Shown here one piece after another: positions 15,294 to 28,000 of a stretch of DNA of 64,000 nucleotides. Every line of letters starts with the position of its first letter. Within the stretch, counting starts at the first letter, position 1. Made by a program: the position numbers and the translations under genes. The notes beneath the pieces are model-generated. The model was not told the DNA's origin. It saw only the letters and a list, made by a program, of their open reading frames with translations, and did no database searches. The DNA comes from a virus: positions 124,001 to 188,000 of IMG/VR virus record IMGVR_UViG_3300028364_000014. One strand, 5' to 3'.

Positions 15294-15325
15294 TATATAT
15301 TTAATTTTTGTAAAATTTATTGCCG

Positions 15326-15402
15326 GGCTAATTAACTCAATAGGTAGAGTATAAGGTTTAAAAAAAATCTTAATGTTTCTGGTTCAAATCCAGAATTAGC
15401 CA
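15326..15402 (+). tRNA. tRNA-like gene, anticodon loop expanded by poly-A (possible tRNA-Leu UAA)
   Basis: Perfect acceptor (GGCTAAT/ATTAGCC), D-arm (ACTC/GAGT with GG in the loop) and T-arm (TCTGG-TTCAAAT-CCAGA). The anticodon stem TAAGG/TCTTA encloses an 11-nt loop of three T and eight A instead of seven bases. The simplest reading places UAA as anticodon with four extra A, but the short variable region is not Leu-like. The identity is open. No CCA encoded. Confidence 0.6.
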
Positions 15403-15443
15403 CAATATAATAATAAACTTATCTTTAATTATGGAATTAAATT

Positions 15444-16067: not shown

Positions 16068-16075
16068 GAGTTATT

Positions 16076-16222
16076 ATGAAATGTATTAAAAACACAAAAG
16101 GAAAGGTAATTAGAGTTACCAACTTACTTGCCGAAGAACGCGTAGATTCTGGAGATTATAAGTACTGCGGTAAAGCAGAATGGAAGAAACAATCTAAAAA
16201 GAAAGCTTCTGTATCAATCTAA
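16076..16222 (+). CDS. Small basic protein, 48 residues
   Basis: Good SD (TAGGAG) 5 nt before the ATG. The product begins MKCIKNTKGKVIRVTNLLA and ends in a Lys-rich tail after YCGKAEWKKQSKKK. No family recognised; compact phage proteins of this type are often nucleic-acid binding. Confidence 0.55.
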   Translation: MKCIKNTKGKVIRVTNLLAEERVDSGDYKYCGKAEWKKQSKKKASVSI

Positions 16223-16284
16223 AGTAGAAGCTCTCCTATCGTGGTCGGACTCTTCTTTAGAGTTCAGAAATAAAATTGAATAAT

Positions 16285-16362
16285 GTCCGTATAGCTCAAT
16301 CTGAATAGAGCAATGACCTTCTAAGTCGTAGATTTTCGGAGGTTCGAATCCTCCTGCGGATA
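16285..16362 (+). tRNA. tRNA-Arg (UCU)
   Basis: Complete cloverleaf: GTCCGTA/TGCGGAT acceptor with wobble ends, GCTC/GAGC D-arm, ATGAC/GTCGT anticodon stem with loop CTTCTAA (anticodon TCT), GGAGG/CCTCC T-arm. No encoded CCA. Confidence 0.9.
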
Positions 16363-16374
16363 CAAGGAAAAATC

Positions 16375-16599
16375 ATGAAAGAATACAAATTAGATTTACA
16401 TGGTGTTAGACATGTAAATGCTAGGCAATTAGTAATCTCTCTCATAGAAAAGTATTGGAATGTACAAGCAGAGTTAAAAATTATCACCGGTAACAGTTTG
16501 AAAATGAAAGGTATAGTTATAAAAGTAATTAAAGAATATGATCTACCTTATCAAGTAAGTGAAATGTGCAGGGGATTTTTAATTACTTGGACGGGATAA
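16375..16599 (+). CDS. Smr-domain protein
   Basis: 74 residues, almost exactly one Smr domain. It has the LDLHGVRHVNARQLV motif at the N-terminus and a central KIITGNSLKMKGIVIKVI strand-helix in place of the usual H-G-K-G-x-G. Stand-alone Smr proteins nick or bind DNA or RNA. The altered G-x-G-like motif may reduce activity. SD AAGGAAAAATC. It follows tRNA-Arg by 12 nt. Confidence 0.75.
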   Translation: MKEYKLDLHGVRHVNARQLVISLIEKYWNVQAELKIITGNSLKMKGIVIKVIKEYDLPYQVSEMCRGFLITWTG

Positions 16600-16612
16600 A
16601 GGAACTTATACA

Positions 16613-17278
16613 ATGAACAGACCAATAATTGATTATAATACAACGGATGTTAGAATAATAAAACATAACGCATTACGTGCAGCCCTTAGAGGTGATGATG
16701 CTATGATGAATTGCACTACTTACATTGATACACATGCTGGACCCGGATGCCATAACAACTGTCCAGGTTCTCCGATGATTGCAAGTGACCATTTTAATGA
16801 ATTATTTTTATATGAAAATAATCCCGAAGATTTTAATAAATTAAAAAGAAACATGAAAGCTGGTTGTATTCTTAGAGAAGCCGATGGGTTTAAGTCGTAT
16901 TGCTATTCTGATAAGAAAACGTTCGTTTTCATGGACCCTCCATTCAAATCTATTAGAGATTATTTTAAAGTAGCAAACTATTTGCAGACTGTCCCTGGGA
17001 TAGGTGCTCTTATGCTTATGTATCCTGTTAGTGCCTTTTTTCCTATTGAAGATTTTCATTGTATGTTACAAAGACAAATAGGGGGTGTAAATTTCTTAAT
17101 AAAAAAAGCAAGAGTATCTGAAACGAAATATTATTGTATGTTTTCTTCAGATGTTTCGGTAATACCGGCATGGAAAGACATCCTTGATCATTCTAGTTTA
17201 ATTGACACTTATAGTATGCAAAATCATATTGGGGATTATTTATTTAAAAAAAGGAAACAAAATCAAAGTGGATACTAA
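16613..17278 (+). CDS. rlmJ: RlmJ-like 23S rRNA adenine-N6 methyltransferase
   Basis: 221 residues. It contains TYIDTHAGPG (SAM-binding motif I region), NNCPGSPMIASDHF, an ELFLYENNPEDFNKLKRNM block (motif II acidic residue), EADGF and the catalytic FVFMDPPF (DPPY/F class) followed by YPVSAFF. This order (DTHAGxG, PGSP, ADGF, DPP[YF]) is that of RlmJ, which methylates A2030 of E. coli 23S rRNA. It is shorter than RlmJ (about 280), lacking mainly N-terminal residues. SD AAAGGAAC. Finding it in a phage is unusual; target unproven. Confidence 0.7.
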   Translation: MNRPIIDYNTTDVRIIKHNALRAALRGDDAMMNCTTYIDTHAGPGCHNNCPGSPMIASDHFNELFLYENNPEDFNKLKRNMKAGCILREADGFKSYCYSDKKTFVFMDPPFKSIRDYFKVANYLQTVPGIGALMLMYPVSAFFPIEDFHCMLQRQIGGVNFLIKKARVSETKYYCMFSSDVSVIPAWKDILDHSSLIDTYSMQNHIGDYLFKKRKQNQSGY

Positions 17279-17453
17279 TAAATTAATAAATTTGATTTTA
17301 TATGGAGATGTTCATGAAACCCCTTTAAATATACTTGGTAATTTATATAAAGTCAACACTAGTGTGGTTTTTGATGATGAACAAAATACGAGATTAGCTA
17401 TTGCAGCTACACTAAAAGATCTAATCACTAAAGGAGAACTTAAAATTAGTTAA
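17268..17453 (+). CDS. Small protein, 61 residues
   Basis: I prefer the GTG at 17268, which overlaps the 3' end of the RlmJ-like gene and follows AAAAGGAAAC. Product VDTNKLINLILYGDVHETPL...; helical, possibly a small winged-helix-like domain (a second helix LAIAATLKDLITKGELKI). No family recognised. Confidence 0.5.
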   Translation: MDTNKLINLILYGDVHETPLNILGNLYKVNTSVVFDDEQNTRLAIAATLKDLITKGELKIS

Positions 17454-17457
17454 AATA

Positions 17458-17718
17458 ATGAAAAAATATTCTAAAAGAGTGTGGTTAAATCCAAAAACGT
17501 CACCGTCTACAGGAAGCATTGTTGCGTATAGGGGTCCTGCCCATTGGGTAGACCCTAAAAAAGTACAAATTCCATATACATTTCTTGAAATAGCGGATTG
17601 TCAAGTTAAAGTAAGACTTCATATGACTAAAACCGATTCCCATAGAGATTTTATTAATAAATTAGAAAAACTTGGAAATACGGCTCTTGAATTTGCAGAA
17701 TTTTTAAAAAAAATTTAA
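17458..17718 (+). CDS. Uncharacterised protein, 86 residues
   Basis: Starts 4 nt after the previous stop. Basic N-terminus (MKKYSKRVWLNPKTSPSTGS) then a beta segment and a C-terminal amphipathic helix (FINKLEKLGNTALEFAEFLKKI). No recognised family. Confidence 0.5.
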   Translation: MKKYSKRVWLNPKTSPSTGSIVAYRGPAHWVDPKKVQIPYTFLEIADCQVKVRLHMTKTDSHRDFINKLEKLGNTALEFAEFLKKI

Positions 17719-17790
17719 GAAATAATTAACTAACTTCCTTATAATAATGAGACGAGTTTATTAATTTTCTTGTATTATAAAAAATTAAAT

Positions 17791-17856
17791 GTAAAGACCG
17801 AATTTCTATGGCTTATCAATTGGTGAAAATACCATGGATGATAAACTTGTCTTTAC
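17791..17856 (+). ncRNA. Three-helix RNA motif, copy 3
   Basis: Perfect 8-bp P1 (GTAAAGAC/GTCTTTAC), CGAA, P2 (CTATGG/CCATGG), TTATCA, P3 (GGT/ACC) and ATAAACTT. TTATC could alternatively pair with GATAA downstream, a possible pseudoknot. It stands in tandem with copy 4, 5 nt apart, upstream of tRNA-Thr. Confidence 0.7.
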
Positions 17857-17861
17857 AAACG

Positions 17862-17924
17862 CAAGGACCGAAGCATCTGGTTCATCCTTTTAAGATAATA
17901 CACCAGAAGCACCACTTGTCCTTG
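17862..17924 (+). ncRNA. Three-helix RNA motif, copy 4
   Basis: Perfect 7-bp P1 (CAAGGAC/GTCCTTG), CGAAGCA, P2 (TCTGGT/ACCAGA), TTCATC, a small P3 (CTT/AAG), AGCACCACTT. P1 and P2 sequences differ from copy 3 while pairing is kept, which is covariation within one genome. tRNA-Thr begins 5 nt downstream. Confidence 0.7.
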
Positions 17925-17928
17925 TTAT

Positions 17929-18000
17929 GCCTATATAGCTGAGATGGTTTAGCACAGCCCTTGTAAGGCTGAGACGTGGGATCGTGACCTACTATAGGCT
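17929..18000 (+). tRNA. tRNA-Thr (UGU), altered T-loop
   Basis: Acceptor GCCTATA/TATAGGC, anticodon arm CAGCC-CTTGTAA-GGCTG (anticodon TGT), T-stem GTGGG/CCTAC. The T-loop is ATCGTGA instead of TTCRANN, so the usual T54-A58 pair is swapped to A54-T58. No encoded CCA. Confidence 0.85.
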
Positions 18001-18032
18001 CAAATATTAAATTTAAAAAAAGGAATTAACTT

Positions 18033-18224
18033 ATGCTTTTTAAAGCACACTTTAAGAAAAGAGATTACTGGACAGTAATGTGTCCTGAGTGCCAATGTTC
18101 TATAGATACTTATAAAGACCCTGAGAACTGTAAGTTTGTTAAATGTAGTTCTTGTGGTCAAATTTACAACTTAGAAAATCCTGCAAAAACAATATTAAAA
18201 ATAGACAATAATAATAATAACTAA
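18033..18224 (+). CDS. Small zinc-ribbon protein
   Basis: 63 residues with CPECQC near residue 18 and CSSCGQIY near residue 38, two CxxC knuckles typical of a zinc ribbon. The tail is Asn-rich (DNNNNN). SD AAAAGGAATTAA. Function not evident; a nucleic-acid or protein-binding role is usual for such folds. Confidence 0.65.
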   Translation: MLFKAHFKKRDYWTVMCPECQCSIDTYKDPENCKFVKCSSCGQIYNLENPAKTILKIDNNNNN

Positions 18225-18291
18225 CATACTATAAGGTCTTTACTTTCTTGCACTTATAGTTTCTATTAATAACAGCTAAGGAGAATGAAAA

Positions 18292-18486
18292 ATGAAAAAG
18301 TTCACATGGTGGTCACCAGGAGGAGCTACAGCCAAACTTACTGAAAAAGAAAAAATATGGTTAAAAGAGCACCCAGATTGGGAAATAAAATGGACAGCCT
18401 TTTATAGATGTAATTTTTTAAATAACTTGGAAGTGAGACGTTACGATAAGTATATGACTAGTAAAGGGTATATCAAGACAAATTAA
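18292..18486 (+). CDS. Uncharacterised protein, 64 residues
   Basis: Strong SD (TAAGGAGAATG). Trp/Tyr-rich sequence MKKFTWWSPGGATAKLTEKE... without a recognised family. Confidence 0.55.
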   Translation: MKKFTWWSPGGATAKLTEKEKIWLKEHPDWEIKWTAFYRCNFLNNLEVRRYDKYMTSKGYIKTN

Positions 18487-18661
18487 TATTCTAATAAACT
18501 AACCTATTAATAAGTAAGCACAAATAATTTAATTGGTACATATTAGCAAATATTAAAGGGATAACAGATTATACATAACTTTTTAAATAGTTAAGAATAA
18601 ATAAGATTATTTTAAGGGGAGCAGATGAAAACTTGCTTCCCTTCTTATTTTAATAAATTAT

Positions 18662-18731
18662 TCTCTATAGTGAAATTGGCATCACGTGTGGCTGTTAACC
18701 ACAAATTTCTGGTTCAAATCCAGATAGAGGA
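18662..18731 (+). tRNA. tRNA-Asn (GUU), copy 1
   Basis: Acceptor TCTCTAT/ATAGAGG (U1-G72 wobble), short D-arm TGA/TCA, anticodon arm TGTGG-CTGTTAA-CCACA (GTT), T-arm CTGG-TTCAAAT-CCAG. Small overall (70 nt). No CCA encoded. Confidence 0.88.
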
Positions 18732-18768
18732 GCAAGTAAAGTGTCTTTTAAATAAAAGGATAAATAAG

Positions 18769-18951
18769 ATGAATTTTGAAGCATTAAAACAAGTTATTAC
18801 CTATATAGCTAAAATAACCTGTGTTATTATTGCTATTCCCTTTGTAATTATAATTATTGTTTTAGGATTACTTATGAGTGCGGTAAGTATTACCATTGAA
18901 GCTGGTCAGGAAATAATTAGAGAAATTAAAATTATTATAGAAGACATGTAA
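18769..18951 (+). CDS. Single-pass membrane protein, 60 residues
   Basis: ATG at 18769 is preceded by AAAAGGATAAATAAG; longer readings run back through the tRNA and are excluded. Residues 13-37 form one very hydrophobic helix (IAKITCVIIAIPFVIIIIVL), followed by an amphipathic helix. Possible membrane effector or holin-like peptide, but nothing specific supports that. Confidence 0.55.
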   Translation: MNFEALKQVITYIAKITCVIIAIPFVIIIIVLGLLMSAVSITIEAGQEIIREIKIIIEDM

Positions 18952-18961
18952 AAAATTTAAC

Positions 18962-19033
18962 GCGAGTATAACTCAATTGGTAGAGTGTTGGTTTTCCAAA
19001 TCAATGATCTTGGTTCGAATCCAGGGACTCGCT
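18962..19033 (+). tRNA. tRNA-Gly (UCC)
   Basis: Acceptor GCGAGTA/GACTCGC with one mismatch at 7-66, D-arm ACTC/GAGT, anticodon arm TTGGT-TTTCCAA-ATCAA (TCC), T-loop TTCGAAT, discriminator T. G1-C72, C2-G71 and U73 are standard Gly identity elements. Confidence 0.88.
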
Positions 19034-19101
19034 CAAAGAGTATAAAGGTTTAATAAAAACCCTCTTGAATTCAATAAAAATGATAATAAGGAGTATTAAA
19101 A

Positions 19102-19449
19102 ATGGTGAACGACGTAAAACAATTTGAAGGAAAAACAGTAAGGGAGCTTAATGATGAGCAGCTTACATCAATAGAGCTTTTGGAAAATGAAGATCGTATT
19201 AAAAACAGTGTTCTTGACCCTAAGTGGCTACATTATGAAACCAGAAAGGATCTTGGGGTACTCTCAGACTTTAAAAACAATCAAGTACTTTGTTTCGAAA
19301 ACGATGAACTTGTTACCGCATTTATTTGTGATGGGCTTCGCTATGCCAGCTTCGATGATAAACTTAATGTAGCGAAGGCTAAAGGGAGTAAAACTACCCA
19401 TGAATATCATTTTGAAAGTGGTGAATACAAGGAGAGTACTATTAAGTAA
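19102..19449 (+). CDS. Uncharacterised protein, 115 residues
   Basis: SD AAGGAG 8 nt before ATG. Acidic alpha/beta protein (VRELNDEQLTSIELLENEDR). Not recognised. tRNA-Pro starts 8 nt after its stop. Confidence 0.55.
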   Translation: MVNDVKQFEGKTVRELNDEQLTSIELLENEDRIKNSVLDPKWLHYETRKDLGVLSDFKNNQVLCFENDELVTAFICDGLRYASFDDKLNVAKAKGSKTTHEYHFESGEYKESTIK

Positions 19450-19457
19450 ATGAAGTA

Positions 19458-19531
19458 CGGGCGGTGACCAAGTCTGGTATGGTACTGGCTTTGGATGCCA
19501 GGAATCGGAGGTTCAAATCCTCTTCGCCCGA
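19458..19531 (+). tRNA. tRNA-Pro (UGG), copy 1
   Basis: Acceptor CGGGCGG/TCGCCCG, anticodon arm CTGGC-TTTGGAT-GCCAG (TGG), T-arm GGAGG-TTCAAAT-CCTCT. No CCA encoded. Confidence 0.9.
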
Positions 19532-19540
19532 ATTTTTATT

Positions 19541-19657
19541 AGTATGGTCTTTAGTCCGTAAAACCCAATGTCTTTAGCTCGGGCTACCTCGATGAATCAG
19601 AAATCTTTAAGCGCGATCTTTTAGAATCCCAATCCTTTAGGTTTGGGAGTATGTCAA
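19541..19657 (+). mobile_element. Solo IS200/IS605-type right end (orphan omega-RNA-like sequence)
   Basis: A run of small palindromes with TCTTTAG/CTTTAG blocks, the phrase GATGAATCAGAAATC and the terminal hairpin AATCCCAATCCTTTAGGTTTGGGAG followed by TATGTCAA match the layout of TnpB-associated right ends, where the omega RNA ends and the guide begins. There is no tnpA or tnpB beside it. The sequence after the end is the tRNA-Gly-like gene at 19662. Likely the relic of an excised or decayed element. Recognition is from memory of such ends. Confidence 0.55.
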
Positions 19658-19661
19658 ATTA

Positions 19662-19736
19662 GCAGAAGTAATTCAATTGGTAGAAAATTATCCACCAAGA
19701 TAATAAATGCAAGTTCAATCCTTGTCTTCTGCTCCA
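19662..19736 (+). tRNA. tRNA-Gly-like with 6-nt anticodon loop (ACC), CCA encoded
   Basis: Perfect acceptor GCAGAAG/CTTCTGC, discriminator T and encoded CCA; D-arm TTC/GAA; T-arm GCAAG-TTCAATC-CTTGT. The anticodon stem ATTATC/GATAAT closes a six-base loop CACCAA, so U33 is missing (or the loop is eight bases if one pair opens). G1-C72, C2-G71, U73 fit Gly identity. Its near-twin is at 31159. Decoding ability is doubtful. Confidence 0.6.
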
Positions 19737-19867
19737 TTTATGCGGTAATCGTAAAAGGCGATCACTTATCTTCAACGGTTTGTATTGACGATATCTATAC
19801 ATATATTTCTGTTATGAATGATAGAGAAAGAAAAAAAGTGAAATTCTTTACTACTGCCCATAAAATG

Positions 19868-19938
19868 CGAGTATAGTTCACTTTGGTAGAGCAATAGCCT
19901 TCCAAGCTATGTGCCAAGGTTCGACTCCTACTTCCCAC
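19868..19938 (+). pseudogene. Decayed tRNA-Gly (UCC)
   Basis: D-arm and anticodon arm are intact (ATAGC-CTTCCAA-GCTAT, anticodon TCC), but the T-stem (CAAGG/CCTAC) and the acceptor stem (GCGAGTA against TTCCCAC) no longer pair. The 5' half matches the tRNA-Gly at 18962, suggesting a duplicated copy that has lost its 3' half. Confidence 0.55.
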
Positions 19939-19981
19939 ACACGCCCCCCTAATCCAGGCAAACGACTATAAAGGAATTATT

Positions 19982-20209
19982 ATGGCAAGTTTAGAAGAAA
20001 TTGAAAATACTTTAAATCTCATACGCATGATTTGGAGAGAACAGCCTCAACTTAGATTATGCCAGTTATTAAATAATACAGCACGCCTGTATAAATGGAA
20101 AGATACGGGTCTTTTTTACATATCAGACAAAGAATTAAGAGAAGGTCTACAACAGTATCTTAAAGATATGTTAAAAATGGATCTAAAACAACGCGGCAAA
20201 AGTAATTAA
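19982..20209 (+). CDS. Small phage protein, 75 residues
   Basis: SD AAAGGAATTATT. Starts MASLEEIENTLNLIRMIWRE and contains PQLRLCQLLNNTA, a pattern (I-W-x-x-x-P-x-L-R-L) common in small phage proteins of unknown function. No catalytic motif. Confidence 0.6.
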   Translation: MASLEEIENTLNLIRMIWREQPQLRLCQLLNNTARLYKWKDTGLFYISDKELREGLQQYLKDMLKMDLKQRGKSN

Positions 20210-20210
20210 C

Positions 20211-20402
20211 ATGAGTATTATGTGTACTATGGGCTTTCATGATTGGAAAATTATTGAAATACCAAAATGGTTGATAAAAATTGAGAGAGTAAGTGTTGTC
20301 CCTTATATGCGTGCTTGTAAAAGACCCGGGTGTACGGCTAAACAAAAACAAAAAAGTACAGGACCGAACAAAGGTCAATGGTATAATATAGCAGAGGTTT
20401 AG
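20211..20402 (+). CDS. Small Cys-containing phage protein, 63 residues
   Basis: Starts one base after the previous stop. GFHDWKIIE and ACKRPGCTAKQ recall small phage proteins with one CxxxxC site; basic. Function unknown. Confidence 0.55.
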   Translation: MSIMCTMGFHDWKIIEIPKWLIKIERVSVVPYMRACKRPGCTAKQKQKSTGPNKGQWYNIAEV

Positions 20403-20403
20403 A

Positions 20404-20739
20404 ATGATTGAAATAGTTTATACAGATAATGGTAAAGTAGTACCAGATGAGCAACTTGAAAAATGGAGTGAACAAGTAATAAAAGAACATAAAAATTTTG
20501 GTTACTTAAACATTGAAGTTGGTTCCTCAATTATGGTAGATATGATAAGAGTGCTTATTGTAAGAGAAAAATTGAAACCAGAAGAAGTTACTTTTTTTAA
20601 TAGAAACAAAGAGGAACCTATAAAAATAAATAGTGCTGGAAGATTATCAGATTGGCCAAGTAATTTTTGTAGTAAAGGAAATGAACTTCTTTATGAACTA
20701 ATAACAGCCTGTTCCAAAAGTAAAAAAAGAAGTATCTAA
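20404..20739 (+). CDS. Uncharacterised protein, 111 residues
   Basis: SD AGAGG, next to the previous stop. The stretch INSAGRLSDWPSNFCSKGNE resembles the C-terminal tail of some large AAA/ABC-type ATPases (pattern G-R-L-x-D-W-P), but no P-loop is present, so it may be a detached domain. The similarity is weak. Confidence 0.45.
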   Translation: MIEIVYTDNGKVVPDEQLEKWSEQVIKEHKNFGYLNIEVGSSIMVDMIRVLIVREKLKPEEVTFFNRNKEEPIKINSAGRLSDWPSNFCSKGNELLYELITACSKSKKRSI

Positions 20740-20793
20740 AAATAATTTATATTAATACAAGGATAGTGGTGCTTGAACTAAAATTAAATAACA

Positions 20794-20867
20794 CGCTGCA
20801 TGGCGAAATCTGATATCGCACTCCGTTTGGGGCGGATGGATTGCTGGTTTGAATCCAGCTACGGCGA
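20794..20867 (+). tRNA. tRNA-Pro-like (UGG), copy 2
   Basis: Acceptor CGCTGCA/TACGGCG with one C-A mismatch, D-arm GCGA/TCGC, anticodon loop TTTGGGG (TGG) on a four-pair stem, good T-arm GCTGG-TTTGAAT-CCAGC. Mild decay or relaxed structure. No CCA encoded. Confidence 0.65.
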
Positions 20868-20891
20868 CAAGAGCTAAGAGGTATTAAAAAC

Positions 20892-21122
20892 ATGTTTACT
20901 GGAAGTGATGCAAGGTACATGGCAGAACAAAATCATAGTAGATTACAAGAAATTATTATAATGGTTGAAAAAACTGCTTTAAAGGGAGAACTTACATTAG
21001 TTATACATAATGAACCGATAGATCCTACACTAGTTAATATGTTACGAGGATTAAATTATAGAGTAACTTGTGAGGTTAATACGCATGAAAACACTATACA
21101 TAAATTAATTATCGAATGGTAA
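20892..21122 (+). CDS. Uncharacterised protein, 76 residues
   Basis: SD AGAGG. Alpha/beta fold likely (MVEKTALKGELTLVIHNEPI, LRGLNYRVTCEV). Its stop codon lies within the P1 helix of the long structured RNA that follows. Family unknown. Confidence 0.5.
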   Translation: MFTGSDARYMAEQNHSRLQEIIIMVEKTALKGELTLVIHNEPIDPTLVNMLRGLNYRVTCEVNTHENTIHKLIIEW

Positions 21123-21345
21123 AATAACAGGAAGTTGGCTTAAAGGCAGCCACTTATAATGAGTGAGGCGAAGACCTACTGCTAGTTCATTTGCTTGACA
21201 GGCTTGGTATCGGTTATTAATGTTAAGGTCTGGGCAAACCATGGTGTCCAATAGCGTAGGAGATATCTCGGTAAAGTAACGAAGCACCCCAGAAATGGTA
21301 AGGCGGGTTTCCTCTTTGGCGTAGCAGCACACTATTATTTTATCA
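21117..21345 (+). ncRNA. Long structured RNA, family member A
   Basis: 5' and 3' ends pair as a long P1 (TGGTAAAATAACAG with CTATTATTTTATCA, one C-A mismatch and one G-U). The 5' block GGAAGTTGGCTTAAAGGCAG and the 3' block CTCTTTGGCGTAGCAGCAC are shared with member B at 28108. CTGCTA near 21180 can pair with TAGCAG in the 3' block. No ORF of note. It ends 4 nt before tRNA-Glu. Part of the 5' block resembles helix 43 of 23S rRNA. Rfam class not identified. Confidence 0.6.
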
Positions 21346-21349
21346 TTTT

Positions 21350-21422
21350 GGAGCCATCGTCTAATGGCTAGGACGTATCCCTTTCAAGGATAAAATGTTG
21401 AGTTCAATTCTCACTGGCTTCA
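21350..21422 (+). tRNA. tRNA-Glu (UUC)
   Basis: Acceptor GGAGCCA/TGGCTTC, D-arm typical of Glu (GTCTAATGGCTAGGAC), anticodon arm TATCC-CTTTCAA-GGATA (TTC). T-stem weaker at its ends. No CCA encoded. Confidence 0.85.
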
Positions 21423-21435
21423 TAAATAACTATAT

Positions 21436-21506
21436 TGCGGAATAGAGTAGTGGTTACTCGTAGGACTCATATTCCTAACACGGAGGTTCGAATCCTCCTT
21501 CCGCTA
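21436..21506 (+). tRNA. Initiator-like tRNA-Met (CAU)
   Basis: Anticodon arm TAGGA-CTCATAT-TCCTA gives CAT. Position 1-72 is a T-T mismatch above GCGGAA/TTCCGC, and the D-stem GAG/CTC has an A11-T24 pair; both are hallmarks of bacterial initiator tRNA. T-arm GGAGG-TTCGAAT-CCTCC. The three G-C pairs of a classic initiator anticodon stem are only partly present (GGA/TCC). Confidence 0.75.
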
Positions 21507-21628
21507 ATAGCTACTTACCAAGTAGCTCTATTAATCCTTGAGCACTGACGTTATGGTAGTCAGTTAGTAAAAAAAATCATACTCGAAAAGGTATGCACGT
21601 GTTTATATGGTTTGGAACACAAACATAT

Positions 21629-21762
21629 GAAGATTGTAGCTCAACTGGTTAGAGCGGCTGACCCAAAAATCTTTTTGCATCCACTTGTCACCCATCTATG
21701 ACCGAAGTAAAAAGTTTATCATACTTCAGCGAGTTGAGGGTTCAAATCCCTCCAATCTTCCA
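21629..21762 (+). tRNA. tRNA interrupted in the anticodon loop by a permuted RNA motif
   Basis: An eight-pair acceptor (GAAGATTG/CAATCTTC), D-arm GCTC/GAGC, anticodon stem GCTGA (21657-21661) with TCAGC (21726-21730) and T-arm GAGGG-TTCAAAT-CCCTC are intact. The anticodon loop is 64 nt instead of 7. The insert has the conserved parts of the three-helix motif in circularly permuted order (see 21671-21721). It does not have a group I core. The amino acid cannot be assigned. The insert may be removed or the RNA may be a tRNA-scaffolded structure. Confidence 0.75.
21671..21721 (+). ncRNA. Three-helix RNA motif, circularly permuted copy inside tRNA
   Basis: Order on the strand: P2' CTTTTT, GCATCC, ACTT, P1 closed as a hairpin (GTCA/TGAC with 8-nt loop), CGAAG, P2 AAAAAG, TTTATCA. 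In the other copies P1 is open and the P3 end is closed; here P3 is replaced by the anticodon stem of the host tRNA. All conserved single-stranded blocks (CGAAG, TTATCA, ACTT) are present. Confidence 0.7.
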
Positions 21763-21844
21763 AGTAAACCCTCTAATTTTCTAAGTAAAAAAAAATTAAA
21801 AACATTAAAGGTTCAAAACTTTTAGGCACTAAAGGAGATATTTT

Positions 21845-22066
21845 ATGCTTTCATTTAAAGAACTAAAACAGTTGAAAATAAAAACTGATTTTTTAAATAG
21901 ACAAGTGAAGAAATTTTTTCTTTCTTTAAGTGGCAGTTGTGAATATAGAAAATTAAAACATCACGATAGTGGGGATTGGTACAAATGTACACATAAAAAT
22001 TATCACTTAGCAAAATATAGAGACATAACTCCTTGTGATGAAAAAGAATGTCCTAAATTAAATTAA
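21845..22066 (+). CDS. Small Cys/His protein, 73 residues
   Basis: Excellent SD (AAAGGAGATATTTT). C-terminal half has CEYRKLKHHDSGDWYKCTHKN and CDEKECPKLN, a likely metal-binding arrangement. Unknown family. Confidence 0.6.
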   Translation: MLSFKELKQLKIKTDFLNRQVKKFFLSLSGSCEYRKLKHHDSGDWYKCTHKNYHLAKYRDITPCDEKECPKLN

Positions 22067-22341
22067 AGATAATAATGCAGTCAGAACTCTACTTTTCAAC
22101 ATAGATCCCAAACTGTATATTAATAGGTATGGATTAGCAGATGATTCATATCAAAATCAAGTATCATGGTCGACTTATTTTTAATGAGTTGAAATTAAAA
22201 TTTGATGAACAACTTTATGGAGCACACCCGTATAGCTCAGCCAGGTGGGGGCCATCCAATCACAACGGGTAGTCAAAGGATAACTGGAATGGTTATCTAT
22301 AAGTAAACCCTAGCCAGTACTAAACTACTCAGTGTTGGCAC
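22067..22341 (+). other. Intergenic stretch with possible 43-residue ORF and tRNA relic
   Basis: An ATG frame at 22141-22272 encodes a 43-residue peptide without a good SD. Overlapping it, ACCCGTATAGCTCAGCCAGGT resembles the 5' half of a tRNA, with ACGGGT downstream able to pair to ACCCGT, but no T-arm follows. The stretch to 22341 contains GATAAC/GTTATC as a hairpin. I cannot decide between a small gene and RNA relic. Confidence 0.3.
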
Positions 22342-22632
22342 ATGAAAAATATAAAATTACCAGTAAATTATAATGAACTCCACTATAAAGATAGACGTAT
22401 TGTACGTGAAGAGTATATTAAATTACAAGACGGTAAATGCTTTCACTGTAGTGTCTCATTAGATAAGAAGCCCAATTTAAGTGTAAGAAAATTATCAGTA
22501 AATAAAAACCTTTTCCCAAAAGGATTCTTTGATTATCCAATACATTTACATCATAATCACGATACTGGAATGACTATAGGGGCTGTTCATTGTTATTGTA
22601 ATGCAGTATTGTGGCAGTACTACCATAAATAA
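22342..22632 (+). CDS. HNH endonuclease (endonuclease VII-like)
   Basis: 96 residues. CFHCSVSL and LHHNHDTGMTIGAVHCYCNA match the recombination endonuclease VII / HNH pattern (zinc Cys pairs around H-H-N-H-D-x-T-G). Such small nucleases resolve branched DNA or act as homing enzymes. No SD is apparent before the ATG. Confidence 0.75.
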   Translation: MKNIKLPVNYNELHYKDRRIVREEYIKLQDGKCFHCSVSLDKKPNLSVRKLSVNKNLFPKGFFDYPIHLHHNHDTGMTIGAVHCYCNAVLWQYYHK

Positions 22633-22644
22633 AGAGGACTACTT

Positions 22645-22908
22645 ATGGAAAAACTTAGAACTAAATCGACTTTCATAAAAGATAAATTTTATGTTAGATT
22701 ACTAGAAGACGATTATGTAATAAACGAAATGGCATGCAAAGATAAAGTTGATATTACTTGGTGTTGTAACTATATGCTGCGATGGTTTGATAAGTTGGAT
22801 GGTAGTTCTAAAATGGCTTCAGCATCTAGGTCTCGTTGGTATAAGAATAAATATAAACCTACTGGAAAAATTTGGCACGAGAAAGATTTAAGAAGGGAAA
22901 ATATATGA
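22645..22908 (+). CDS. Uncharacterised protein, 87 residues
   Basis: SD AGAGGAC. Basic, Trp-rich C-terminus (SRWYKNKYKPTGKIWHEKDL). Its stop overlaps the next start (ATGA), implying coupling. No family. Confidence 0.5.
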   Translation: MEKLRTKSTFIKDKFYVRLLEDDYVINEMACKDKVDITWCCNYMLRWFDKLDGSSKMASASRSRWYKNKYKPTGKIWHEKDLRRENI

Positions 22909-23225
22909 AAAAAGATGGTGGAAATATAAAAAATTGGCAGTTACATAATCTTACATACAAAGACGACTCTTTAAAACAATTAAAAGAGATGTATCCTGAA
23001 GCAGTTACTAAACCAAACCCAATGATAGTAACTGGCACTGTAGTTAATGAACCTACTGGTAGATGGAAACCTGGAAATCACTTTAGATCTTCTATGATTG
23101 TAAAGATAAATCGAAAAAATAACACTATTGAAACTTTAAATACAATTTACCATTTTGATCCTGAAACTGAAGGGCAAGACACTATACCTGACTTAGGTAA
23201 TGGGGTACTTGGTATATTTTATTAA
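22905..23225 (+). CDS. Uncharacterised protein, 106 residues
   Basis: The ATG at 22905 overlaps the previous stop and has AGAAGGGAAAA upstream; a longer reading from 22872 lies inside the previous gene and is not preferred. Beta-rich (MIVTGTVVNEPTGRWKPGN, SSMIVKINRKNNTIETLN). Unknown family. Confidence 0.5.
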   Translation: MKKDGGNIKNWQLHNLTYKDDSLKQLKEMYPEAVTKPNPMIVTGTVVNEPTGRWKPGNHFRSSMIVKINRKNNTIETLNTIYHFDPETEGQDTIPDLGNGVLGIFY

Positions 23226-23236
23226 GGAAATATTAA

Positions 23237-23587
23237 ATGAATAAAATAAAAATATGCGATAAAAAAGGATGTAACAACATCACAAGAACGCCTGATGTAA
23301 AATATCGTAGCATAGTTTGTGCTGCCACCGACTATGATTTTTTAATCAATGATAAAAAAAAACAAAATAAAATACCTTTTATTTCCGTAGGTAATAATGA
23401 ACTTAAAGATAATAAAAAATTAAAAAAAGGTAATTTAATAGATTGTCCTCACTGTCTGAAGAAACATAAAGTAGAACTAGGAAAAACATCTGATGGTGTA
23501 GAAACTGATTCCTTAATGTTCTATAAGTGCGGAAAAAATTTATATCTTTGTGGAGTAGACGGGGTGTCTCTAAGTGCATCCAGCTGA
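23237..23587 (+). CDS. Cys-rich protein, 116 residues
   Basis: CDKKGCNN at the N-terminus, CPHCLKKHKVE in the middle and CGKNLYLCG near the end form several Cys pairs consistent with two small zinc sites. SD AAGGAAATATTAA. No family assigned. Confidence 0.55.
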   Translation: MNKIKICDKKGCNNITRTPDVKYRSIVCAATDYDFLINDKKKQNKIPFISVGNNELKDNKKLKKGNLIDCPHCLKKHKVELGKTSDGVETDSLMFYKCGKNLYLCGVDGVSLSASS

Positions 23588-23765
23588 AACATTAATTCAT
23601 TGGAGTTGCAGTGATAAAGAACATAAGCAATTATTAAAAGAATACAAACAATTTTACGATGTTATTGTAAATAATGGATTTAAAAAAGAATTAGATGTAT
23701 TAATAAGTGCTTCTTACCGTGTAGGCAGTATGGATGAGTGGGATGCTAATGAGGAAATAATATGA
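23574..23765 (+). CDS. Uncharacterised protein, 63 residues, GTG start
   Basis: GTG start inside the last codons of the previous gene; stop overlaps the next ATG (ATGA). Helical (HKQLLKEYKQFYDVIVNNGFK). A coupled chain of small genes. Unknown. Confidence 0.45.
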   Translation: MHPAETLIHWSCSDKEHKQLLKEYKQFYDVIVNNGFKKELDVLISASYRVGSMDEWDANEEII

Positions 23766-23905
23766 ATTTATATGAAATTTTAAATACGCTTCATAAAGTT
23801 GAAGACCAGGGACCTGCCTCTTTAGATAAAAAAGAAAAGGATCAGTTAATATACAATATGACTGAATTCATTAAAGCAATAGTTAAAGAGGACTATAATG
23901 ACTGA
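23762..23905 (+). CDS. Small acidic protein, 47 residues
   Basis: ATG overlaps the previous stop, and the 3' end overlaps the start of the metallophosphoesterase gene. Product MNLYEILNTLHKVEDQGPAS... is an acidic helical peptide. Confidence 0.5.
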   Translation: MNLYEILNTLHKVEDQGPASLDKKEKDQLIYNMTEFIKAIVKEDYND

Positions 23906-24455
23906 TTTTTTTACGTCCGATTGGCATATGTTTCATTATAATATTATTAAATATGCCAATAGACCATTTAAAGATGAAAATACAATGAAAAATGAAATCA
24001 TTAAGAGACATAATGAAGTAGTAAGACCAGAAGACACTACATATGTTCTTGGTGATGTAGCAATGATTGGTAGACACGGACTGAGTAAATTAGAACCTAT
24101 ACTTAAAAAAATGAATGGTACTTTTCATCTTATTCTTGGTAATCACGATGAGGGTAAGCCATTTACTTATGAAAGGATGGGGTTTACTACAGTACATACA
24201 GCACTTCAATATGATACTAATACAATCCTAAGACATGACCCAGCGTCTGCTATTATTATGCCTGATAAGTTGTGGCTTGTAGGGCATGTGCATAATCTAT
24301 TTAAAATTTCTCTTAAACATACTATATGCTATAACGTAGGGGTCGATGTTAATAATTTCTATCCTGTAACTCTTGCACATATACATAAAGAAATTATTGA
24401 AGCTAAAAAAGATAGGGAATTATTTAATCGATTTAGAGAAAAAGGAGGCAGTTAA
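23898..24455 (+). CDS. Calcineurin-like metallophosphoesterase
   Basis: 185 residues. Motifs: TSDWHMFHYN (D-x-H), VLGDVAM (G-D-x), ILGNHDEG (G-N-H-D/E) and VGHVH near the C-terminus; together they form the di-metal site of phosphoesterases. Its length fits the compact phage-borne type. SD AGAGGAC. The substrate (nucleotide, cyclic nucleotide or RNA end) is unknown. Confidence 0.88.
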   Translation: MTDFFTSDWHMFHYNIIKYANRPFKDENTMKNEIIKRHNEVVRPEDTTYVLGDVAMIGRHGLSKLEPILKKMNGTFHLILGNHDEGKPFTYERMGFTTVHTALQYDTNTILRHDPASAIIMPDKLWLVGHVHNLFKISLKHTICYNVGVDVNNFYPVTLAHIHKEIIEAKKDRELFNRFREKGGS

Positions 24456-24456
24456 C

Positions 24457-24702
24457 ATTAAAACAAAATACTACGGTGATACCCCACTAGTATCAGCTGA
24501 ACTACCAAAAAATAACACCACTGAAGCTGAAGTAGAATCAGGGCTTAATATCTGTTTATACAAGCTAAAAGAAAGTAAACTACCCTACAATAAAAAATTA
24601 TTTGGTAATGTTACAGTTAATGATCTAAGAAAAGTATTAAAGACCAGTGTTGACGCAATTAGTTTTACAAAAAGTGAACTAGGTGAAGCTTGGTTTAAAT
24701 AA
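24457..24702 (+). CDS. Uncharacterised protein, 81 residues, probable ATT start
   Basis: A perfect AAAGGAGG lies 8 nt before an ATT codon that opens the frame one base after the previous stop; the nearest in-frame ATG is far inside the upstream gene. The coding frame begins I/M-KTKYYGDTPLVSAELP. ATT initiation is rare but known. Product is alpha/beta, unknown family. Confidence 0.5.
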   Translation: MKTKYYGDTPLVSAELPKNNTTEAEVESGLNICLYKLKESKLPYNKKLFGNVTVNDLRKVLKTSVDAISFTKSELGEAWFK

Positions 24703-24741
24703 TTATTCATAAAACAAGAAAATTATGAGGAGAGTAACTTT

Positions 24742-24855
24742 ATGTCAAATAAAGATAGATTAGGTAAATTAACGATATGTAGGAGTTGTGGGTGGTTTGG
24801 TTATAAAATAGAATTTGAAAACAATATATGTCCAAACTGTTTTAAATACATTTGA
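24742..24855 (+). CDS. Mini zinc-ribbon protein, 37 residues
   Basis: SD GAGGAGAG. Sequence has CRSCGWFG and CPNCFKYI, the two halves of a rubredoxin-like zinc knuckle. Too short for other domains. Confidence 0.6.
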   Translation: MSNKDRLGKLTICRSCGWFGYKIEFENNICPNCFKYI

Positions 24856-24856
24856 A

Positions 24857-25090
24857 ATGTTAAAAAAATTTACTAGTTGGGTATTTGATAGTGACGGTAG
24901 AAGAAAACGTAAGAGAGAGTATAAGTCTTATGACTTAGGGTTTGGTTGGGCAATGGCTGAACATTTAATTCACAAAAAATCTATTATGGAACTTCAAAGT
25001 TACATTGTAGAGCACACTGATAGCTCATTTGATTGGGGAGCACAAGACGCTATAGAACTTATTATTGAATCAGGACTAGAATTAGAATAA
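24857..25090 (+). CDS. Uncharacterised protein, 77 residues
   Basis: The ATG at 24857 follows the previous stop by one base (TGAAATG). A basic patch (GRRKRKREYKSY) precedes a helical acidic C-terminus. A longer reading back to 24815 overlaps the zinc-ribbon gene and is rejected. Confidence 0.5.
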   Translation: MLKKFTSWVFDSDGRRKRKREYKSYDLGFGWAMAEHLIHKKSIMELQSYIVEHTDSSFDWGAQDAIELIIESGLELE

Positions 25091-25095
25091 ATTAT

Positions 25096-25264
25096 AAAAG
25101 TGGGAAGCTGATTGCTTGGCGCAGCCCTGAAAATCGCACTATAAATATAATTCTAAATGCGTCATAGCCTTATGAATATAAAATATCTTATATTTATAAG
25201 GCATAAGCTAATGAACGTGTACTAATTAATTTTATAAATTATAATATAGACACTTTCACAAATA
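25096..25264 (+). ncRNA. Structured RNA, possible shorter member C
   Basis: Ends pair (AAAGTG with CACTTT). Directly after the 5' strand comes GGGAAGCTGATTGCTTGGCG-CAGCC, similar to the GGAAG...GGCAGCC opening of members A and B. Internally a strong hairpin is formed around GCCTTATGAATATAA/TTATATTTATAAGGC. It lacks the 3' block of A and B, so membership is tentative. Confidence 0.4.
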
Positions 25265-25285
25265 CTAATAATATTGGGAGAATTA

Positions 25286-25603
25286 ATGCAAAGAAAAGTT
25301 TGGACATTGGATAAAAGAATAGCGTTATTTAAATTTCTTAAAGATCGATTTGGACCACTTAGTGCTTGGCCTGGATCGTCTCCAGTAGAAGGGGCAACTA
25401 ATTTACTAAATTTTTGTAATCATTTTGCTGGATTAGTAAAAGCAAAATCTGGAAGAGCGGTACTTAATCAAGTTAGGTGGGCGGTTACAAGTCAACCATC
25501 CGTTAAAAATATTTCTACATTTTTTGAATGTAAAGCTGCAGCGTTGGATGCGGGATTTATTACTAGCAAAGAAATGCCTACTAAAGTTGAATGTAAGTAT
25601 TAA
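25286..25603 (+). CDS. Uncharacterised protein, 105 residues
   Basis: ATG at 25286 with SD GGGAG 5 nt away; the upstream TTG at 25274 overlaps the SD and is rejected. Basic helical protein (LVKAKSGRAVLNQVRWAVTS). No family. Confidence 0.5.
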   Translation: MQRKVWTLDKRIALFKFLKDRFGPLSAWPGSSPVEGATNLLNFCNHFAGLVKAKSGRAVLNQVRWAVTSQPSVKNISTFFECKAAALDAGFITSKEMPTKVECKY

Positions 25604-25668
25604 TTAAAGATATTTAACTAACTCTTATATTATTAGGATGTTTTAAAATTAAAGGAGGTGATACCTAT

Positions 25669-25836
25669 ATGCCTGGAAAAGACGGAACTGGTCCTAACGG
25701 TAATGGACCAAAAAAAGTAAAGCAGGGTGTTCCTACACCAAAAAACAATAAGAATAAACGAGGGTCTAAAAATGATCCCGGAGCCGGAAGAGGTGGGGGA
25801 GGTGGCATCGGCGGTAGAGGTAGAGGAAATAGATAA
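25669..25836 (+). CDS. Gly-rich protein, DUF5320-like N-terminus
   Basis: 55 residues behind a perfect AAAGGAGGTGAT. The start MPGKDGTGPNGNGPKK resembles the DUF5320 opening (M-P-x-x-D-G-T-G-P-x-G-x-G-P). The tail is a Gly/Arg-rich run. Function unknown; the RGG-like tail could bind RNA. Confidence 0.55.
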   Translation: MPGKDGTGPNGNGPKKVKQGVPTPKNNKNKRGSKNDPGAGRGGGGGIGGRGRGNR

Positions 25837-25848
25837 AAAGGAGATCTT

Positions 25849-25890
25849 ATGCAAGTAAAGCATAAGAAATTTATAGAAGACACCCTTTAA
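25849..25890 (+). CDS. Possible leader peptide, 13 residues
   Basis: ATG with SD AAAGGAG. Ends in AGTTAC/GTAACT inverted repeat just before the SD of the gene at 25921. It could be a short leader or translational-coupling peptide. Weak. Confidence 0.25.
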   Translation: MQVKHKKFIEDTL

Positions 25891-25920
25891 GTTACTTAGT
25901 GTAACTAAAGGAGGTGTTTA

Positions 25921-26238
25921 ATGCAATACAAAGATATTTTTTATTTATACACTTATCATTTTACTAAGAATTGGAAAATAGTAACAACAATAAGATCCCA
26001 CCCATTTAGGTTTCGATTTGATCAAGTACCTCACACTGGTGGAAGAAAGCCGTGTATTTATGGTGGTGTTAGACACATGAAGACTACACAAGAACGTAAG
26101 TGGTCTTTAGCTCATGGTAAATACGTGAGAGGTAGAAGGAGTTTTCGTATACTTCCTAATAGTTGGGATGATTATTGGCATGCACGCCGTGAAAAAGGCT
26201 GGAAGCGATCAAAAAATAAGAAAAGACAGTGGCAGTAG
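25921..26238 (+). CDS. Uncharacterised basic protein, 105 residues
   Basis: SD AAAGGAGGTG. Extremely rich in Arg/Lys, Trp and Tyr (GWKRSKNKKRQWQ at the end, RGRRSFRILPNSWDDYW). Probably nucleic-acid binding by composition; no family recognised. Confidence 0.55.
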   Translation: MQYKDIFYLYTYHFTKNWKIVTTIRSHPFRFRFDQVPHTGGRKPCIYGGVRHMKTTQERKWSLAHGKYVRGRRSFRILPNSWDDYWHARREKGWKRSKNKKRQWQ

Positions 26239-26248
26239 TTTAGTTAAA

Positions 26249-26278
26249 AGTTCCTATATTCGTCGTGAATATAGGGAC
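26249..26278 (+). terminator. Strong hairpin after the 25921 gene, terminator-like
   Basis: GTTCCTATATTC-gtcgt-GAATATAGGGAC pairs almost completely. No strict T-run follows (ATAACAATTATATTTT), so it may be an RNA-stabilising hairpin rather than a terminator. Confidence 0.45.
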
Positions 26279-26308
26279 ATAACAATTATATTTTAGGGAG
26301 AATTAATA

Positions 26309-26590
26309 ATGTTTTTTAGAACTGAAAATGGTGAAGAAAAAAAAGTAATGTTTCGGCATAATCGCGAAGAACGTCCAGATAAGAATGGTATTTATAGAGG
26401 TCATCCAGTTAATACTGAGTGTAGTATTTTTGTTGATGATACAGTGGTAGGGCATGGCATTGCGATGTGCAACCCTGTGGACCATTTTGATAAACGAATT
26501 GGTAGAAAGAAGTCTTTTGAACGAGCACTAAGAAATGCTGATTTTAATGTTAAAGACAGAACTTTAGGTTGGGCAGAATTCTGGAAGTAA
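26309..26590 (+). CDS. Uncharacterised protein, 93 residues
   Basis: SD GGGAGAATTA. Mixed charge, with YRGHPVNTECSIFVDDTVVG and a basic helix (RIGRKKSFERALRNADFNVK). Unknown family. Confidence 0.5.
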   Translation: MFFRTENGEEKKVMFRHNREERPDKNGIYRGHPVNTECSIFVDDTVVGHGIAMCNPVDHFDKRIGRKKSFERALRNADFNVKDRTLGWAEFWK

Positions 26591-26613
26591 CGATATATAA
26601 AATAAAATAAAAT

Positions 26614-26702
26614 TGAGAGTTGCCCGAGTGGTTGAAGGGGTTCGCCTGCTAAGCGAATGAGGTTAGAAATAGTCTCCGAGGGTTCAAATCCCTCACTCTC
26701 AG
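26614..26702 (+). tRNA. tRNA-Ser (GCU)
   Basis: Acceptor TGAGAGT/ACTCTCA, anticodon arm TTCGC-CTGCTAA-GCGAA (GCT), long class-II variable arm and T-arm GAGGG-TTCAAAT-CCCTC, discriminator G. Canonical. Confidence 0.92.
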
Positions 26703-26716
26703 ACGGGAAAATTATT

Positions 26717-27115
26717 ATGCAATGGCTGTATAAGCTATACATTAAATTTATAAATTCAAGTACTTGGCATCATTTATATTATAAACACACTAAAGAATTT
26801 AAAAAAATGATTTCTAACGTAGAAAAAAATGCATTAGAATTTAGAAAAAAATGTGAGGAACTAGAAACTTATCCATGCCAATACTGCCTTGAATTAGGTA
26901 ATAAAGTATGTATTAAAACTTGTGACTTGATTGAGCATGATAATGAGGTATTAACAGCATTAATAAATAAAAATAAATGTTGTCCTGATTGTGGAAATAA
27001 GAACTCATTATGTAAAGGACCTGAAGCAGGAGCATCACAAAATATTTATTGTACCAACTGTAATCATTGGTTTAATTTCTGTCTTGGTACTTTTACGCAT
27101 AGAATTATTAAATAA
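26717..27115 (+). CDS. Zinc-ribbon-containing protein, 132 residues
   Basis: ATG at 26717 is preferred because longer readings overlap tRNA-Ser. CQYCLELGNKVC in the middle and CCPDCGNKNSLCKG plus CTNCNHWFNFC near the end are zinc-binding Cys pairs; the last part resembles a common phage zinc-ribbon (G-P-x-x-G-x-S-x-N-I-x-C-T-x-C). Helical N-terminal half. Confidence 0.6.
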   Translation: MQWLYKLYIKFINSSTWHHLYYKHTKEFKKMISNVEKNALEFRKKCEELETYPCQYCLELGNKVCIKTCDLIEHDNEVLTALINKNKCCPDCGNKNSLCKGPEAGASQNIYCTNCNHWFNFCLGTFTHRIIK

Positions 27116-27127
27116 GGAATTATATAT

Positions 27128-27865
27128 ATGGATACAACAGTTGATTTTACTTTTCCTGTAGTGCCTTTTTGCGAAGCACAATTAAAAGACATAAACCCTT
27201 CAGATATACTTATGAATAATATGTTTAGGGTTTGTAATGTCTATAAGGGTGGTGGAGGATATGATAAGTTTCCTGATATTGCTTTTAGACGTACTGGATG
27301 TATAACAGATAAACAATTTATAGTACAACTTAAAGGATGCCCACTTAAATGTTCTTACTGTTATGTTACTCCTGCCGGTATTAATGGGGAAGCTACATAT
27401 CATTCTTCTGACCTTTTAGTTTCTATATTTAAAACCTCTATGGAATTAAATAAAACTAAGGTATTTCACCTAATGGGCGGAGCTCCAGCAATATATATAG
27501 ATAAGTGGCACCACATCATATCAAAACTACCTAAAGGCGCTATATTTCATTCTGATATCATGCTAATTGAAAAAGCATACAATAAAGTAGACTTTAGTGC
27601 TTTAAATAAACCTAATTGTCTATACGCTGTATCAATAAAGGGAAATAATGCTGAAGAATTTTTTAAGAAAACCAGTACCGAATTAAATGAGAGTTTATTC
27701 TGGAAAAATTTTGATATTGTTGTAAATAGCGGTATAAGTTTTTATATTACATTTACTGATATTAATCCAACTGAAATATATCAAAAAATTGCCGATAGAT
27801 ACGGACTTGGTGTGTTGAAAGACTCATTTACTATTAAAAAAATAGAATATGAAGCTATAAAATAA
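27128..27865 (+). CDS. Radical SAM protein
   Basis: 245 residues. GCPLKCSYCYV (about residue 77) is the CxxxCxxC cluster motif for the 4Fe-4S/SAM site, followed by a GGAP motif (LMGGAPAIY) and beta strands of a partial TIM barrel. No auxiliary cluster or SPASM domain is seen. Fold is comparable to activase- or QueE-like minimal radical SAM enzymes, but no precise reaction can be assigned. SD AAGGAATTA. It may modify a nucleoside, peptide or the tRNAs nearby. Confidence 0.8.
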   Translation: MDTTVDFTFPVVPFCEAQLKDINPSDILMNNMFRVCNVYKGGGGYDKFPDIAFRRTGCITDKQFIVQLKGCPLKCSYCYVTPAGINGEATYHSSDLLVSIFKTSMELNKTKVFHLMGGAPAIYIDKWHHIISKLPKGAIFHSDIMLIEKAYNKVDFSALNKPNCLYAVSIKGNNAEEFFKKTSTELNESLFWKNFDIVVNSGISFYITFTDINPTEIYQKIADRYGLGVLKDSFTIKKIEYEAIK

Positions 27866-27878
27866 TAAAATTTATTGT

Positions 27879-27968
27879 GTTGGGAGTGGCGAAATTGGCT
27901 AGACGCGCTAGGTTGTGGTCCTAGTATCCGTAAAGGATGTGAGGGTTCGAATCCCTTCTCTCACCCCA
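27879..27968 (+). tRNA. Class-II tRNA with His anticodon (GUG), CCA encoded
   Basis: Body is Leu-like: GTGGCGAAATTGGCTAGACGC D-arm region and a class-II variable arm (TATCC...GGAT). The anticodon arm CTAGG-TTGTGGT-CCTAG reads GTG (His). The acceptor pairs imperfectly (extra T near the 5' end), with C73 opposite a G as in tRNA-His, followed by CCA. It looks like a Leu-type tRNA recruited to His or a chimeric tRNA. Confidence 0.7.
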
Positions 27969-28000
27969 AAAATAATAATAATTAAATAAGGATTTAATTT

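Follow-up and report, generated by a model that had tools for sequence, protein, structure and literature searches.

A probable circularly permuted Y RNA built on a tRNA fold in a phage that encodes Ro60

The DNA considered here is a window of 64,000 nucleotides, a part of a virus record of 237,910 bases (IMG/VR record IMGVR_UViG_3300028364_000014). Between positions 21629 and 21760 of this window lies an RNA gene in which a tRNA fold surrounds a greatly enlarged anticodon loop, and the loop itself carries the parts of a second RNA motif. The features of this gene are given below, together with the evidence for each; R2 is a covariance model built from relatives in other genomes, which is described later.

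21629-21760, + strand: probable tRNA-like Y RNA gene, from G-1 to C73, with circularly permuted YrlA architecture (Rfam tRNA, ARAGORN -i, minimum free energy fold with all arms, R2 match inside)
21629-21636, + strand: acceptor 5' strand, G(-1)AAGATTG, with G-1 paired to C73 (sequence, fold)
21639-21655, + strand: D arm, GCTC/GAGC (ARAGORN, fold)
21657-21661, + strand: anticodon stem 5' strand, GCTGA (ARAGORN, fold)
21671-21676, + strand: P2' of the Ro60-binding stem, CTTTTT (pattern scan, R2, fold)
21683-21686, + strand: 3' core of the Ro60-binding stem, ACTT (R2 alignment)
21687-21702, + strand: P1 as a closed hairpin, GTCA-CCCATCTA-TGAC, with an 8-nt closing loop where ordinary Y RNAs have free ends (pattern scan, R2, fold)
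21703-21707, + strand: 5' core, CGAAG, with bulged C (R2 alignment)
21709-21714, + strand: P2, AAAAAG (pattern scan, R2, fold)
21715-21721, + strand: conserved TTTATC(A), which lies 3' of P2 in Y RNAs (YrlA comparison, R2)
21726-21730, + strand: anticodon stem 3' strand, TCAGC (ARAGORN, fold)
21736-21752, + strand: T arm, GAGGG-TTCAAAT-CCCTC (ARAGORN, fold)
21753-21760, + strand: acceptor 3' strand, CAATCTT, with discriminator C73 (ARAGORN, fold)

The initial annotation of this locus described a tRNA with intact acceptor, D- and T-arms and an anticodon loop of 64 nt, and this description was confirmed by RF00005, by ARAGORN and by the predicted fold. The Rfam tRNA model RF00005 matches 21630-21760 at 50.7 bits (cutoff 29), and ARAGORN, with introns allowed, finds every arm fully paired: the acceptor has 7 bp in addition to the G-1:C73 pair, and the anticodon stem has 5 bp, with the 64-nt loop between its two strands. 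Furthermore, both the minimum free energy and the centroid structures of the 132-nt RNA contain all of the tRNA arms together with P2 and P1 (-33.4 kcal/mol, z = -3.1). An anticodon loop of 7 nt with U33 is absent.

Inside the loop, the order of elements is CTTTTT, GCATCC, ACTT, the closed P1 hairpin, CGAAG, T, AAAAAG and TTTATCA. The insert is a circular permutation of the motif, as had been claimed from its rotated order; the parts lie at the positions originally assigned to them, and R2, which was trained on other genomes only, ranks this site first in the window. The full closed-hairpin pattern, defined by a P2 of at least 5 bp and a TTATC-like tail, occurs at just two sites in the 238-kb record, namely this locus and the junction of a pair of tandem copies at 17845. 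Chance similarity was assessed with shuffled sequences, and the full pattern was found in 0 of 40 Markov shuffles of the record and was likewise absent from all 200,000 shuffled versions of the 64-nt loop.

Unrotated copies of the motif were found by motif scan elsewhere in the window:

15208-15293, + strand: unrotated Y-RNA-like stem, P1 of 11 bp, 32 nt upstream of a tRNA
17790-17857, + strand: unrotated Y-RNA-like stem, P1 of 9 bp, in tandem with the copy at 17861-17925
17861-17925, + strand: unrotated Y-RNA-like stem, P1 of 8 bp, 3 nt upstream of tRNA-Thr
29144-29247, + strand: unrotated Y-RNA-like stem, P1 of 8 bp

The tRNA downstream of the first copy (15326-15403) is called as Phe(AAA) and has a mostly-A anticodon loop of 9 nt. 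At the junction of the tandem copies (17845) the elements stand in the permuted order with matching P2' and P2, and we offer purely as a suggestion that tandem duplication could produce the permutation in the same way. The further claim that the host anticodon stem replaces P3 held only in part: the permutation is real, but the unrotated copies lack a clear conserved P3. In YrlA, the P3 place is occupied by the tRNA-like module.

Other elements of the window are recorded here as separate observations. Two paralogous elements of 200-300 nt (21128-21335 and 28118-28420) both end in CTCTTTGGCGTAGnAGCACAC, and their 5' ends, for example CAGGAAGTTGGCTTAAAGGCAGCCA, closely resemble the L11-binding hairpins of the 23S rRNA GTPase-associated centre when set against the E. 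coli 58-mer. Similar 5' ends occur in other large Ro60 phages, in L174 (reverse strand, 1006) and L137 (13861). The two elements have no Rfam match and are possibly mimics of the ribosomal centre. At 30822-31038, the tRNA-like halves GAGCGTG ... GCAGGTTCGAGTCCTGTCACGCTCA lie ~170 nt apart and are not recognised as a tRNA, tmRNA or group I intron. The tRNA island also contains, on the minus strand, an IS605 OrfB / TnpB-like (Cas12f-like TNB) gene at 32608-33813, and a ClpB/AAA-type gene at 43339-46491 on the minus strand has an apparent intein with a LAGLIDADG domain.

The motif follows the order P1-CCGAAG-P2-UUAUC...P2'-ACUU-P1', as does the stem by which Y RNAs bind Ro60. The human Y RNA hY1 contains CCGAAG, UUAUC and ACUUG. 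In this stem, one strand of the helix has a bulged C and the other a 3-nt bulge (PMC4726728); the helix, the bulged C, the CGAA... and the opposing ACUU can all be read in the sequences of the five copies in the window and in the R2 match. The phage also encodes a full-length Ro60 protein. It is 540 aa long, lies at 97716-99338 of the virus record, outside the window, and is identified by Pfam (vWA_Ro60, 1.4e-50; TROVE, 7e-37) and by phmmer against the Rsr of Deinococcus radiodurans (5.9e-104), so that the tRNA-like RNA shares its genome with a Ro60 ortholog, as is expected of a Y RNA. In this record the two genes are ~46 kb apart, unlike those of the relatives, which counts against the scaffold reading given below. 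Coding for an RtcB RNA ligase is likewise found outside the window, in two pieces at 83094-84509 of the virus record (the first ORF has 180 aa), and is possibly split by an intron or a frameshift.

In the intergenic sequence of known Ro60 phages, YrlA RNAs lie near the Ro60 gene. Their elements are CCGA(A/G).., P2, GGTTATC and either ACTTG or ACATG around P1 (for example CGGACCGAATTGGATTGGGTTATC...ACCCCAATCCTAAATAACTTGTCCG in L171), and the T arm, closed acceptor and D arm lie between these Ro60-stem elements. A scan of the known Ro phages with a strict CGA...CTTG pattern gave nothing convincing, because the 3' core in such phages is often ACATG. In Microbacterium phage Zooman (L082, ~6945-7095), the YrlA of usual order can be read as a permuted tRNA-Trp(CCA) whose GCCA end is encoded and whose split anticodon stem is perfect. 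No significant YrlA of usual order was found in the record studied here, where the best match to RF02553 reached 14.4 bits (E 0.52), and therefore the 21629-21760 RNA may be the record's only tRNA-like Y RNA.

Relatives of this RNA were sought at Ro60 genes. No close phage relatives came from searches with one protein at a time, either the radical SAM gene or the phage Ro60, and exact-pattern motif scans of IMG/VR returned 17 and 51 matches; as neither a tRNA nor the full motif accompanied any of these, we judged them to be chance and set them aside. An alignment of six phage Ro60 proteins led to 80 viral loci and 80 bacterial or archaeal loci. With introns allowed, ARAGORN found many tRNA genes of ~115-155 nt with a closed Ro60 stem in the insert at both the viral and the bacterial Ro60 loci; the architecture was seen in 0 of 68 viral control loci, which contained only five tRNAs. 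A clean set of 39 members was drawn from 31 Ro60 loci of phages and bacteria. The P1 loops in this set are mostly 3-8 nt, ambiguous arrays were excluded, and the possibility that candidates were tandem YrlA units read across their borders was dismissed for this set by single-copy cases and closed P1 loops. All 39 members are on the Ro60 strand, at a median distance of 393 nt and a maximum of 1,712 nt from Ro60, distances that describe a set chosen close to Ro60 genes with a tRNA finder and, in part, by visual inspection; the genome-wide searches given below are less biased evidence. The cores of the 39 are 44-50 nt long, and that of the window copy is 50 nt.

Both helices of the Ro60-binding stem are supported by the 39-member alignment. 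For P1 and P2, 85.7% of cells are paired (71.1% when shuffled), the covariation is 0.463 against 0.203 when shuffled and at most 0.252 when slid, and 11 of 11 pairs have changed on both sides. From these members we built R2, which includes no window sequence and which replaced a first model of the full insert, R1, that captured P1 only. The top R2 match in the window is 21672-21720 (24.2 bits, E 1.7e-4), which places this RNA in the class, and the second (E 0.0037) overlaps the first unrotated copy; as the model is home-made, these E-values are rough. When 12 whole bacterial genomes of 5-16 Mb were searched, R2 matches were listed in 11 at E of 1e-5 or below, and those that could be matched by sequence or place were at the Ro60 locus. 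Similarly, among 59 sampled genomes of one class, R2 was found in five and TROVE in eight, with all five R2 genomes among the eight and the two features within ~3 kb of each other; two of the five overlap with the training data, one through a training locus and the other through a sequence identical to a training sequence, which leaves three independent genomes. The closed-hairpin, tRNA-embedded Y RNA is a class common by the Ro60 genes of phages and bacteria.

The closest known RNA is YrlA (RF02553; Salmonella structure 6CU1), the architecture of which is reviewed in PMC8394870. YrlA shares with the 21629-21760 RNA the Ro60 stem (CCGAA.., P2, UUAUC, ACUU/ACAUG) and a module of D, T and acceptor arms, all of which are present here, and it is also encoded together with Ro60. 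However, YrlA ends at the Ro60 stem, has a closed acceptor and follows the order T-acceptor-D, whereas the phage RNA has an open acceptor, the normal tRNA order and a Ro60 stem closed by 8 nt. Thus, with their open and closed ends exchanged, the two RNAs are circular permutations of each other, and the RF02553 model does not recognise the phage copy. The 6CU1 Y RNA has been described as a tRNA mimic that can be superposed on tRNA only after circular permutation (PMC11472068), and the 2023 list of known natural RNA permutations (PMC10085705) does not name Y RNA. Eukaryotic Y RNAs (hY1-hY5) follow the same logic of helix, bulged C and opposite 3-nt bulge (PMC4726728), but they have no tRNA module and their free ends are at the stem. 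When compared with tRNA (RF00005), the phage RNA has all four arms and, like tRNA-His in particular, a G-1:C73 pair, but differs in its 64-nt anticodon loop without a usable anticodon. Relatives with G-1:C73, which the window copy also has, include L088, L096, L136, L142, L149, L152, L200, L236 and L240. Finally, the intron-containing and permuted tRNA genes of archaea and algae (PMC3978253, PMC3218864) resemble this gene in their interrupted anticodon region or rotated order; here, in contrast, the insert is a Ro60-binding stem, and the hosts of the class are bacteria and phages.

Taken as a whole, we consider it likely that 21629-21760 encodes a tRNA-mimicking Y RNA, a circularly permuted YrlA, that is a scaffold for docking the phage Ro60. 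What the analysis shows is that the fold is predicted, that its order is permuted, that the same genome has a Ro60 gene, that the architecture is linked to Ro60 genes elsewhere and that both Ro60-stem helices covary in relatives; binding of Ro60, processing of the ends by tRNA enzymes and the effector role are inferred. The product would be a stable Y RNA with its ends at the tRNA acceptor rather than at the Ro60-binding stem, and the insert of this copy would probably not be removed. The Ro60 (Rsr) ring protein of the phage itself would dock at the closed hairpin that emerges from the anticodon loop; P1 here is just 4 bp, compared with 5 or more in many relatives, which counts against this reading. 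YrlA is a substrate of TruB and DusA and a tether to the exoribonuclease PNPase (PMC8394870). Similarly, the tRNA body of the phage RNA would have its ends processed by tRNA enzymes, would possibly or even probably be modified as in YrlA, and may tether or address Ro60 to an effector nuclease, which in known YrlA is PNPase. Alternatively, the tRNA body could act as a decoy for tRNA-acting enzymes, an idea that has been raised for YrlA (PMC7790460).

Other explanations have to be weighed against this scaffold. The initial annotation suggested a small ribozyme, and a permuted topology of a compact, conserved fold is what a self-cleaving or self-splicing RNA could show, but we regard this as extremely improbable: the stem with which Y RNAs bind Ro60 accounts for the conserved nucleotides, a Ro60 gene is present in the phage, elements of this kind are linked to such genes, and Rfam gave no ribozyme or intron match at gathering score, nor at a lax E-value in 14800-34300. 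The accompanying statement that no group I core is present agrees with the lack of any Rfam group I match. A resemblance to a riboswitch was considered and dropped, as it had no Rfam support. It also seems very unlikely that the locus is a decaying tRNA pseudogene with a functionless chance or degenerate insertion. Although the anticodon is not decodable and the phage has many other tRNAs, the perfect pairing of every tRNA arm, the pairing of both insert helices and the z of -3.1 argue against decay, as does the recurrence of the architecture, with covariation, at Ro60 genes across phages and bacteria.

More has to be said of the proposal that a real tRNA gene holds the Ro60-binding stem as an intron-like insert, which a nuclease and a ligase (for example, RtcB) remove to restore a decoding tRNA. 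If excision begins just a few nucleotides into the anticodon stem and ends at TTA(T)(C), 27 of the 39 relatives regain an anticodon stem of 5 bp and a loop of 7 nt with U33 and purine 37, whereas swapping 5' sides among members gave a mean of 9.4 and a maximum of 18 in 2000 trials; an earlier swap test with 57 noisier members pointed in the same direction (28 versus 5.5). The anticodons of the restored loops include Cys(GCA) in L088 and L096, Arg(TCT) in L136, Met(CAT) in L205, Gly(TCC) in L229 and Tyr(GTA) in L238. Most relatives therefore keep an anticodon arm that is split by the Y stem, and the retention of a potentially canonical arm, for which a pure scaffold has no obvious use, is a point against the scaffold reading. 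The phage does encode RtcB pieces, and in Salmonella rsr and Y RNA genes lie within the rtcBA operon (PMC7790460). In the 21629-21760 copy, however, wherever the boundaries are placed in a normal frame, excision fails to yield a 5-bp stem together with a 7-nt loop that has U33, and the nearest product has either a loop of 8 nt, ATCATACT, or a stem of 4 bp. Furthermore, C73 is present in 18 of the 39 relatives but in only 49 of 633 ordinary tRNAs from the same loci. Each of the 14 members that carry G-1 has C73 as well, a pair that marks tRNA-His and does not fit their anticodons. RtcB was found in just 3 of 55 Ro60-phage records, and its role as a general phage-encoded partner of the class was accordingly dropped. 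We know of no splicing nuclease for such an element. We thus think it unlikely that this locus is an excisable element. For the wider class, excision is the minority reading, and we hold it to be similarly doubtful that the class represents a novel type of tRNA intron, in which phage and bacterial tRNAs with an anticodon stem split by a Ro60-binding Y-RNA element have that element excised and their exons re-joined, so that Ro60, Y RNA and possibly RtcB would form a bacterial tRNA-splicing or gating system and copies such as 21629-21760 would have lost the decoding loop. Of the two options put forward originally, an element that must be removed and a tRNA that is a scaffold for the fold, the scaffold is better supported; removal finds no canonical 7-nt loop in this copy, and for the class it retains the 27 restorable members against the 9.4 expected.

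In summary, RNAs with the unpermuted tRNA order and a Ro60 stem in the anticodon arm, as in the tRNA-mimicking scaffold favoured here, would be the missing partner of YrlA, and they suggest that tRNA genes gave rise to Y RNAs or that the two interconvert. The class is widespread at Ro60 genes, where annotation software sees ordinary or intron-bearing tRNAs and the Rfam YrlA model misses them. Finally, anticodon arms that are split and yet conserved in most relatives make the roles of bacterial Ro60, and perhaps of RtcB, testable in cultured Sorangium and Minicystis.
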